From Nocardioides sp. zg-1228 (GTDB taxonomy: Bacteria; Actinomycetota; Actinomycetes; Propionibacteriales; Nocardioidaceae), in the NCBI RefSeq assembly GCF_017086465.1, contig NZ_CP070961.1:3224001-3288000 (forward strand): a DNA stretch of 64,000 nucleotides, read 5' to 3'. This document shows positions 31,572-46,540 of this stretch, piece by piece. The notes under the pieces were generated by a model. The model searched no databases. It was not told where the DNA came from and saw only the letters and a list, made by a program, of their open reading frames with translations. The position numbers were made by a program, and so were the translations under genes. The first letter of the stretch is position 1. Every line of letters starts with the position of its first letter.

Positions 31572-31648
31572 TGGTGCCCCGGCTGGGGTTCGAACCCAGA
31601 CTGTGCGGTTTTTAAGACCGCTTCCTCTACCGGTTGGGATACCGGGGC
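31572..31648 (-). tRNA. tRNA with anticodon UAA (Leu codon UUA), short variable loop
   Basis: Reading leftward, the acceptor GCCCCGG pairs with CCGGGGC, followed by discriminator A and an encoded CCA. The anticodon stem GCGGT/ACCGC encloses loop CTTAAAA, giving anticodon UAA. The T arm is CTGGG-TTCGAAC-CCCAG, all pairs perfect. The D arm has TCC/GGA (3 bp) with GG in the loop. The variable loop is only 5 nt (ACAGT), whereas tRNA-Leu normally has a long variable arm. Length is 77 nt including CCA. Structure is intact, so it is not a pseudogene by sequence; decoding identity remains uncertain. Confidence 0.85.
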
Positions 31649-31665: not shown

Positions 31666-32223
31666 TCAGAGGTAGGTCTTGCGAGCGTAGACGGCGTGCG
31701 CGCCGGCCGCGCGGTCGAGGAAGAGCAGCCCGTCGCAGTGGTCGATCTCGTGCTGCAGCGCCCGCGCCTCGAACGCCTCGGCCTCGATCTCGACCTCCTC
31801 GCCGGTGCCCGGCAGCTGCCCGCGTACGACGACCCGGCTGGCGCGCTTGACGTCGCCGGTGAGGTCCGGCACCGACATGCACCCCTCGCGGGCCTTCTCG
31901 TTGCGGCTGCCCGAGACGACCTCGGCGTTGCAGAGCACGAAGGTGCCGTGGTGCGCCCGGGTCTTGGGGTGCGCGGACACGTCGACGCAGAACACCTTGG
32001 CGCCCACCCCCACCTGCGGCGCGGCCAGGCCGACGCAGCCGGGCGAGACCCGCATGGTGGCGACCAGGTCGGCGGCGAGCCGGACGACGTCGGGCGAGGT
32101 CGGGTCGACGCTCTCGCCGACCGTCGACAGCACGGCGGCGGGCGCGCGGACGACCTCGCGGAGCTCCCCGGCCACGCCGAGGTCGGTCTCGGTCCACTCC
32201 AGGACCCGGGTGTTGACGACCAT
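31666..32223 (-). CDS. def: Peptide deformylase
   Basis: Removes the formyl group from nascent N-terminal methionine. The 185-residue protein carries all three motifs: GCVGLAAPQVGVG (motif I), EGCMSVP (motif II, metal Cys) and QHEIDHCDG (motif III, two His and catalytic Glu). N-terminal VVRAPAAVLSTVGESVD and C-terminal FLDRAAGAHAV are typical of actinomycete enzymes. The start ATG 32223 was chosen by family length; the longer open frame runs into the ACT gene, whose stop lies 11 bp upstream. The tRNA gene lies 17 bp beyond its stop on the same strand. Confidence 0.95.
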   Translation of the reverse strand: MVVNTRVLEWTETDLGVAGELREVVRAPAAVLSTVGESVDPTSPDVVRLAADLVATMRVSPGCVGLAAPQVGVGAKVFCVDVSAHPKTRAHHGTFVLCNAEVVSGSRNEKAREGCMSVPDLTGDVKRASRVVVRGQLPGTGEEVEIEAEAFEARALQHEIDHCDGLLFLDRAAGAHAVYARKTYL

Positions 32224-32234
32224 CGCTCGCGTGC

Positions 32235-32762
32235 TCAGAGCTCGTCGGTGTCGGCGGCGCGGAGGGTGACCCCCACACCGAGGTCGGCCGCGACCCGGGA
32301 GAGCTCGCGCTCCACGGCGCTGGCGTCGGCGCCGGACGGGAGGTCGACCTCGGCGACGAGCAGGTAGAGGTCGCCGGCCAGCCGGGTGGTGAGGTCGGTG
32401 ATGTTGCCCCCGACGCCCGCGATGACCGCGACGACGGCAGACACGATGCCGGGCCGGTCGCCGCCGTGGACCGACAGCACCCACGACGTGCCGTCGCCGG
32501 CCGCCCGGTGCTCGGTGGGGACCTCGCGGACCGTCACGGTCAGGCTGCCGTCGGCGGTGAGCGGCGCGAGCGCCTGCTCGATCTCGGCGTCGGGCGCCGA
32601 GCCCTCGCAGACCAGCATCATCGCGAAGTGGCCGCGCAGCAGGGTCATCGTCGAGTCCTCGAGGTTGAGGCCCAGCCCGGCGAGCCTGCCGGTGGTCTCG
32701 GCGATGATGCCGGGGCGGTCGTGGCCGAGGACGGTGATGGCGTGGAGGGTCACGCCGCGCAT
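32235..32762 (-). CDS. Tandem ACT-domain protein (GcvR-like)
   Basis: A 175-residue protein made of two ACT domains: residues about 5-80 (HAITVLGHDRPGIIAETTGRL, LNLEDSTMTLLRGHFAMMLV) and 93-170 (WVLSVHGGDRPGIVSAVVAVI, NITDLTTRLAGDLYLLVAEV). The DRPGI motif at both ligand sites is intact. GcvR-type proteins bind amino acids (glycine, serine) and act as regulatory partners; there is no DNA-binding domain. It is the first of the leftward pair with def, 4 bp from the upstream uracil-DNA glycosylase stop. Confidence 0.88.
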   Translation of the reverse strand: MRGVTLHAITVLGHDRPGIIAETTGRLAGLGLNLEDSTMTLLRGHFAMMLVCEGSAPDAEIEQALAPLTADGSLTVTVREVPTEHRAAGDGTSWVLSVHGGDRPGIVSAVVAVIAGVGGNITDLTTRLAGDLYLLVAEVDLPSGADASAVERELSRVAADLGVGVTLRAADTDEL

Positions 32763-32766
32763 CCTC

Positions 32767-33600
32767 TCAGCCGGCGGCGTCGGTCAGCTCGCGGGCACGC
32801 TCGAAGACCTCGTCGGTCATCTCGCGGGTGAGCCGGCGGGTGTAGGTGTTGTGGGGCGAGGGGTGGTAGCAGCCGAGGAGGGTCACGCCGCCCAGCACCA
32901 CCTCGGCACCGTGGCCGAACCGCGGGCGCTGCGCCGGCGCCGGCGCACCGGCCGCGACGAGCGAGCGCACCGCGCCGTCCCACCCGAAGCCACCGAGCGC
33001 CACCACCACCCGCACCGTCGGCAGCAGCGCCAGCTCGGCGGCGATCCACGGCGCGCAGGTGTCGCGCTCGACCGCGGTGGGCTTGTTGTCCGGCGGTGCG
33101 CAGCGCACGGTCGCGACCATCCGGGCGCCCAGCAGCCGCTGCCCGTCGCCGGCGTGCTCGCTCGTCGGCTGCGCGGCCCACCCGGTGCGGTGCAGGCTGG
33201 CGAAGAGCCAGTCGGCGCTGGGGTCGCCGGTGAAGATCCGTCCGGTGCGGTTGCCGCCGTTGGCCGCGGGGGCCAGGCCGACGACCAGGAGCGCGGGCTC
33301 CGGGTCGCCCCAGCCGGGGATGGGCCGCCCCCAGTAGGGCTGGTCGGCGAACGAGGCCCGCTTCGCCACCGCGACGTCCTCGCGCCAGGCGACCAGGCGC
33401 GGGCACGCGGAGCAGACGCTCACCCGGGCGTCGAGCTCGGCCAGCGGCACGTCGCTCGCGAGACGGCGTACGTCGTCGGCGTCGCGCGCGACCGGGGTGT
33501 CGGGGGCGGCGGGGTCGTCGGGCCATCCGGTGCCGGGCGCGACCGGGCTGGAGAACGCGCCGCCCACGACGGGGTGCGGCAGGAGCACCGGCTCGCTCAT
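32767..33600 (-). CDS. Uracil-DNA glycosylase family 5 (UdgB-like, Fe-S)
   Basis: Removes uracil and other deaminated bases from DNA. The 277-residue protein has the Fe-S cysteines of family 4/5 enzymes (VCSACPRLVAWRED; RCAPPDNKP; later Cys in DTCAPW). The active-site motif GLAPAANGGNRTGRIFTGD (about 108-126) replaces the Asp-containing motif of family 1, as known for UdgB, and the C-terminal motif is CYHPSPHNT. ATG 33600 overlaps the ppx stop by 4 bp. Several further Pro-rich residues (about 20-45) precede the catalytic core. Confidence 0.92.
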   Translation of the reverse strand: MSEPVLLPHPVVGGAFSSPVAPGTGWPDDPAAPDTPVARDADDVRRLASDVPLAELDARVSVCSACPRLVAWREDVAVAKRASFADQPYWGRPIPGWGDPEPALLVVGLAPAANGGNRTGRIFTGDPSADWLFASLHRTGWAAQPTSEHAGDGQRLLGARMVATVRCAPPDNKPTAVERDTCAPWIAAELALLPTVRVVVALGGFGWDGAVRSLVAAGAPAPAQRPRFGHGAEVVLGGVTLLGCYHPSPHNTYTRRLTREMTDEVFERARELTDAAG

Positions 33601-46063: not shown

Positions 46064-46170
46064 GGGCGCCCACACTGGCAATGGGCGCGACCTCCCGCAA
46101 CCGGCTTTCGGGGTGAGTTGCCCGCCTCGCCCCGGCATGACACCGTGGGCCGTGCCCCGACCGCGGGCGA

Positions 46171-46210
46171 CCGGACGAGGGAGCCGTACCCGGACAGCGA
46201 CAAGACGGCC
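46171..46210 (+). ncRNA. Guanidine-III (ykkC-III) riboswitch
   Basis: CCGGACGAGGGAGCCGTACC, then CGGACAGCGACAAGACGGCC, matches the guanidine-III aptamer almost base for base. P1 pairs CCGG with CCGG, the conserved ACGAGG and GACAAGACGGC parts form the pseudoknot that holds the guanidinium ion, and the 3' strand ends 3-8 nt before the ribosome-binding site GAGGAG. This is the known regulatory RNA of guanidinium exporters and related genes; the ligand opens translation of the downstream SMR gene. Confidence 0.88.
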
Positions 46211-46225
46211 GTCGAGGAGATGGCC

Positions 46226-46540
46226 ATGGCCTGGTTGGTGCTCGTCCTGTCCGGCGTCCTGGAGGCGGTGTGGGCCACCGCGCTCGGCCGCTCCGAGGGG
46301 CTCACCCGTCCGCTGCCCACCGCGACCTTCCTCGTCGCGCTCGCGATGAGCATGGCCGGCCTGGGCTACGCCATGCGCACCCTGCCGGTCGGCACGTCGT
46401 ACGCCGTGTGGGTGGGCATCGGCGCCGTGCTGACCGTGGTCGTGGCGATGCTCACCGGCACCGAGTCGTTCTCGGTGGTCAAGGCCCTGCTGCTGGCCGG
46501 GCTGGTCGGGTGCATCGTCGGGCTCAAGCTGGCGCACTGA
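46226..46540 (+). CDS. gdx: SMR family guanidinium exporter (Gdx/SugE type)
   Basis: Exports guanidinium in exchange for protons. The 104-residue protein has the four helices of the small multidrug resistance family, with the essential Glu in helix 1 (LSGVLEAVWATAL, Glu13 by usual numbering) and helix-3 sequence GTSYAVWVGIGAVLTVVVAML. The Trp in GIGA-preceding YAVWVGI fits the Gdx subgroup. Assignment to Gdx rather than generic drug export rests on the guanidine-III riboswitch 15 bp upstream. ATG 46226 was selected over 46220 because GAGGAG is then at the right distance (6 nt). Confidence 0.92.
   Translation: MAWLVLVLSGVLEAVWATALGRSEGLTRPLPTATFLVALAMSMAGLGYAMRTLPVGTSYAVWVGIGAVLTVVVAMLTGTESFSVVKALLLAGLVGCIVGLKLAH

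Follow-up and report, generated by a model that had tools for sequence, protein, structure and literature searches.

A UAA-anticodon, leucine-type tRNA without the class II variable arm in Nocardioides, at a locus resembling that of bldA

The initial annotation of a 64,000-nucleotide stretch of Nocardioides sp. zg-1228 DNA (hereafter the window) pointed to a tRNA gene whose UAA anticodon is that expected for the leucine codon UUA and whose variable loop is only 5 nt, and set this against the premise that bacterial tRNA-Leu has a long variable arm. What does such a tRNA carry, and what is it for? We consider it very probable that the gene is the cell's sole, housekeeping tRNA-Leu for UUA, that its product dispenses with the class II variable arm and is charged by leucyl-tRNA synthetase (LeuRS), and that the gene is a positional orthologue of the bldA-type gene that changed class in place.

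The tRNA gene and its bldA-type locus

A complete UAA-anticodon tRNA of class I shape is confirmed at 31572–31648. ARAGORN calls tRNA-Leu(taa) over this interval on the minus strand, a strand that the initial annotation had left unstated, and Rfam RF00005 matches 31575–31648 (E 1.2e-9). The mature tRNA reads GCCCCGG-UA-UCC-CAACCGGUAGA-GGA-A-GCGGU-CUUAAAA-ACCGC-ACAGU-CUGGG-UUCGAAC-CCCAG-CCGGGGC-A-CCA, with all stems paired and CCA in the gene. The features of the locus are listed below, together with two related genes elsewhere in the genome.

31572..31648, minus strand: class I (5-nt variable loop) tRNA-Leu, anticodon UAA, CCA encoded (ARAGORN; Rfam RF00005, 57 bits; homologues and covariation)
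31575..31575, minus strand: discriminator A73 (sequence)
31600..31604, minus strand: variable loop ACAGU, 5 nt, its final U being U48 of the A15-U48 Levitt pair (sequence, alignment of determinants)
31612..31614, minus strand: anticodon UAA (TAA on the minus strand) within the 7-nt loop CUUAAAA (ARAGORN, anticodon at position 35 of the 77-nt gene; sequence)
31623..31639, minus strand: leucine-type D arm, a 3-bp stem (U10-A25, C11-G24, C12-G23) around CAACCGGUAGA, with A14, A15, G18G19, A20a and the class I core signature C12-G23, C13
29862..30821, minus strand: Bax1-I family membrane protein gene, downstream on the same strand (Pfam PF12811, E 7e-72)
31666..32223, minus strand: peptide deformylase gene, def (Pfam PF01327, E 7e-41; def-tRNA order conserved in the genus)
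32235..32762, minus strand: ACT-domain protein gene, upstream of def, a genus-conserved neighbour (Pfam PF13740; tblastn in 25 loci)
G000:C1:1776555-1776627 (L034): tRNA-Leu(CAA), without the long arm
G000:C1:2854797-2854870 (L038): tRNA-Leu(UAG), without the long arm

The variable loop falls within the 4–5 nt of the class I shape and short of the ~10 nt or more of a class II arm. The D stem of 3 bp, with 11 nt from position 13 to 22, follows the standard tRNA-Leu layout, so the tRNA body is leucine-like apart from its variable loop. The anticodon, class I shape and functional appearance first read from the letters are thus borne out by ARAGORN, Rfam, the paired stems, the encoded CCA and the covariation described below.

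On the strand of the tRNA, the def reading frame (start codon provisional) stops 17 nt upstream of it. We saw no sigma-70-like promoter and no intrinsic terminator around the tRNA, which is therefore probably cotranscribed with def; the lack of a promoter consensus upstream counts against our main explanation. The proposed survey of related genomes beside def found the ACT-def-tRNA order kept across the genus (tblastn, 25 loci). ARAGORN also calls a tRNA-Pro(ggg) at 33184–33261 (+), which is probably false: it lies within a coding region, a uracil-DNA-glycosylase-like ORF on the other strand, is not matched by Rfam, and the genome has a proper tRNA-Pro(GGG) at another place. Farther along the window, a Guanidine-III riboswitch at 46149–46213 (+; RF01763, 52.8 bits) stands just upstream of an ORF for a small SMR-type transporter, which ends at 46540; a guanidinium exporter would be expected to have this arrangement.

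The genome is a single contig of 4.05 Mb at 99.99% completeness, and 45 tRNAs were found and read in it. The leucine tRNAs with UAA, CAA and UAG anticodons have 5-nt variable loops, and those with GAG and CAG are normal long-armed class II molecules. A search for a second UAA tRNA, including the normal class II form that might have existed elsewhere, returned none among the 45. A Nocardioides pini record holds the identical UAA tRNA, letter for letter (L240). Codon use was sampled in 20 stretches of 20 kb (283 ORF-derived genes, crude gene calls), where UUA is the rarest codon at 6 of 104,693, in few ORFs, some of which may be false gene calls or have over-long starts; CUA occurs 58 times, CUU 154, UUG 225, CUG 4750 and CUC 5173. 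By these counts the short-armed UAA, CAA and UAG tRNAs serve rarely used leucine codons and the long-armed GAG and CAG tRNAs the common ones. The window has no UUA in 17,044 codons. The bldA-type situation suspected from the anticodon, with UUA rarest of all, is thereby upheld.

The tRNA sits in a block of genes (eno, DUF501, Ppx, Bax1-I, SGNH, CBS) that surrounds a class II bldA-type tRNA in Streptomyces-like genomes, the Bax1-I gene being the synteny anchor common to those class II loci. In four genomes of one Streptomyces-like genus (g19; 8–9.7 Mb), the class II UAA tRNA, which we take to be bldA, has Bax1-I, SGNH and CBS homologues on one side; on the other, Ppx is present in three of the four stretches and DUF501 also in one, arranged as in the window. 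These genomes are presumably Streptomyces. In two other genomes (G200 and G025), class I tRNAs are accompanied by the greater part of this block, running from mazG and eno through CBS. The block is not universal: none of it was found within 8 kb of the gene in two Mycobacterium-like genomes (G211, G283). Because the block is shared, the window gene looks like a positional orthologue of the bldA-type gene in another shape. With Streptomyces bldA it has in common the UAA anticodon, the standing of sole UUA-decoding tRNA, high GC and UUA as the rarest codon, and with the four g19 genomes the same locus, Ppx, Bax1-I, SGNH and CBS neighbours included. The shape differs: bldA-type tRNAs have a variable arm of about 15–17 nt, G9, G12-C23 and G13, where the window tRNA has 5 nt, A9, C12-G23 and C13.

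The scarcity of UUA and the chromosomal slot shared with bldA-type genes would also fit a translational switch like that of bldA, in which UUA is kept for a few genes that depend on the level of the UAA tRNA. We regard this as unlikely, though it could hold alongside the main explanation and need not compete with it. A GC content of 72.6% already leads one to expect few UUA codons, the UUA-bearing ORFs sampled are as few and uncertain as noted above, and the developmental role of bldA, it has been argued, may be confined to Streptomycineae (PMC4255298).

Distribution and exchange of the two classes

The 150 distinct class I UAA sequences compared, all equally long, have 99.4% of their stem cells paired, with many compensatory types, and nearly every stem position shows at least two Watson-Crick types. 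Near-identical copies and covarying homologues in so many genomes exclude a chance origin of the UAA tRNA. Within the order, 106 of 118 genomes have a class I tRNA-Leu; across the phylum, 89 of 296 do. A GTDB-wide pattern scan gave, among the matches listed, 80 loci that were read, and all 80 are short-arm tRNA-Leu(UAA); the names include Mycobacterium, Nocardia, Rhodococcus, Gordonia, Corynebacterium, Cellulomonas, Brachybacterium, Blastococcus, Nocardioides and others. Some of the matches listed come from genomes not named as Actinomycetota; in three of eight such genomes a class II UAA tRNA is present as well, and several are metagenome bins. Extra copies, tRNA arrays or errors of binning may account for these matches, and we claim no wide spread beyond the phylum. 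The short-armed UAA tRNA is the normal form across much of the actinobacteria, a real variant of a housekeeping gene. Short arms also occur in CUN isoacceptors of some genomes or tRNA arrays: one locus (L342, genome G037) has a class I tRNA-Leu(GAG), and another (L269) has class I tRNAs with GAG and CAG anticodons.

The two forms of the UAA tRNA exclude one another. Within the same 296 Actinomycetota genomes, the short-arm UAA pattern occurs in 69, the long-arm pattern in 134 and both in none (Fisher 3e-22, ignoring kinship), the patterns being strict enough that 93 genomes match neither. Arm length is coupled to the D-stem core. The class I core, in 220 distinct tRNA-Leu sequences, is C12-G23 (218), C13 (219) and A9 (207); the class II core, in 33 sequences, is G12-C23 (32) and G9 (32), with G or A at position 13. 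The original class patterns fixed residue 23, which may confound it with arm length, and swapped combinations were searched as a control, again with strict patterns: a short arm with C23 was found in 0 of 296 genomes and a long arm with G23 in 0 of 100.

Family f21 shows such an exchange: depending on the genome, one and the same site carries a class I or a class II UAA gene, the genes upstream are shared, and the acceptor and T arms are identical. A single genus can even contain both, G324 having the class I gene and G339 the class II gene. Exchange of the anticodon from another class I tRNA was considered and set aside: no class I CAA tRNA was scored in f21, and the CAA tRNA of G151 is class II. 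On these grounds a change of class in place, in one direction or the other, is favoured in f21, subject to a weak extra match in G324 (L392). In another family (f4), the tRNA-Leu(UAA) of four relatives (L340, L343, L344, L345) has variable loops of 7–9 nt, possibly intermediates between the classes. The Streptomyces-like genomes of g19 combine a class I CAA tRNA-Leu with a class II UAA tRNA (L318–L324); class is therefore set isoacceptor by isoacceptor.

Our comparison suggests that, somewhere in the phylum, the UAA gene switched class in place, its arm passing between about 15 and 5 nt, while the D-stem core would have been exchanged in concert (G9 with A9, G12-C23 with C12-G23, G13 with C13), presumably allowing a class I-type core to stand without the arm. 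The direction and mechanism of this switch are inferred. It is reasonably likely, with less assurance than we attach to the housekeeping role, that the tRNA at the bldA locus changed between classes II and I more than once, through this fixed concerted exchange at 9, 12-23 and 13 with gain or loss of the arm, its amino acid kept.

A further suggestion had been that the gene is an additional or phage-derived UUA decoder, acquired by horizontal transfer. Class I tRNA-Leu does occur in actinophages, and some genomes with non-actinobacterial names carry a class I UAA tRNA beside a class II one. The present genome, however, has no other UAA tRNA that this one could supplement; the ACT-def-tRNA order is conserved in the genus, and the wider gene block is common across orders. 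Phage homologues are mostly about 79–81% identical, none exceeds 90%, and the two that were read have GAG and CAA anticodons. Neither part of the suggestion was borne out, and we judge a mobile origin highly improbable. The two phage genes, a class I tRNA-Leu(GAG) in Mycobacterium phage Bigswole (L431 401-473) and a class I tRNA-Leu(CAA) in Corynebacterium phage StAB (L432 395-471), are short-armed like those of the hosts.

Leucine identity and charging

The UAA tRNA keeps the determinants of E. coli LeuRS: A73, A14 (in U8-A14), A15-U48, G18G19 and A20a. The 220 distinct class I tRNA-Leu sequences have A35 throughout (220/220), A73 and A15-U48 in 218 each, and a D loop ending in AGA in 211. 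A model built from 23 class I sequences scores the three short-armed genes of this genome at 87–100 bits and the remaining tRNAs of the test set at no more than 61. A single LeuRS of the genome passes the family cut-off; it has editing and anticodon-binding domains, and no second one reaches that score. E. coli LeuRS requires A73, A15-U48, G18G19 and A20a, and variants of its tRNA without the long arm remain active (PMC9976931). Since the determinants are conserved, E. coli tRNA-Leu stays active when the long arm is missing and a single LeuRS is present, leucine charging is the expected outcome. The UAA tRNA is most likely charged with leucine by this one ordinary enzyme and would decode UUA; in bacteria, LeuRS reads A73 and the elbow and core (U8-A14, A15-U48, G18G19, A20a) rather than the arm.

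Charging by another synthetase, such as PheRS or LysRS, with a different amino acid inserted at UUA, would suit the class I shape, typical of non-leucine tRNAs, and the nearest non-leucine tRNAs by blastn, which are tRNA-Lys; it is nonetheless very improbable, given the leucine-type D arm and near-invariant A73 and A15-U48, the missing lysine and phenylalanine anticodon determinants, the sole-decoder status, and the one-for-one replacement of class II tRNA-Leu(UAA) among genomes and at the f21 locus.

Relation to known systems and significance

The housekeeping tRNA-Leu(UAA) proposed here shares A73, A14, A15-U48, G18G19, A20a, the 3-bp D stem and the loop layout with canonical class II tRNA-Leu, for example that of E. 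coli, and differs in lacking the long arm and in its switched D-stem core bases. Databases list individual genes of this type under tRNA-Leu. Animal mitochondrial tRNA-Leu likewise lacks the class II arm and takes its identity from A73 and A14 (PMC9976931); the window tRNA, in contrast, is bacterial and chromosomal, has a fully regular core and coexists with class II tRNA-Leu in the same cell. The tRNA-Leu(UAG) in a tRNA gene cluster of the Mycobacterium mucogenicum clade is also actinobacterial with a short variable loop, but is an extra gene beside a normal long-armed isoacceptor, whereas the window UAA gene is the only one for its codon (PMC6582537).

A 2023 review places the long arm in tRNA-Leu everywhere but animal mitochondria (PMC9976931). 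The premise of a universal long arm in bacterial tRNA-Leu, from which the initial annotation started, fails: the UAA, CAA and UAG tRNAs of this genome are short-armed, as is the UAA tRNA in 69 of 296 genomes. We found no paper describing short-armed housekeeping tRNA-Leu of actinobacteria, in a search made largely among openly available papers, so this absence is not proof.

In bacteria that count mycobacteria, nocardias and corynebacteria among them, UUA, and frequently UUG and CUA as well, would be read by short-armed leucine tRNAs, which bears on isotype prediction, on models of tRNA identity and on LeuRS recognition. It bears equally on the view of bldA, whose positional orthologue appears to be short-armed in many actinobacteria. 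Where a locus holds one class in one genome and the other class in a relative, as with G324 and G339, direct tests could show what a class switch costs structurally and in which order its steps occur. If the class did change more than once at the bldA locus, Actinomycetota offer in their leucine tRNAs a natural experiment in class switching, one that contradicts the long-arm rule outside animal mitochondria.
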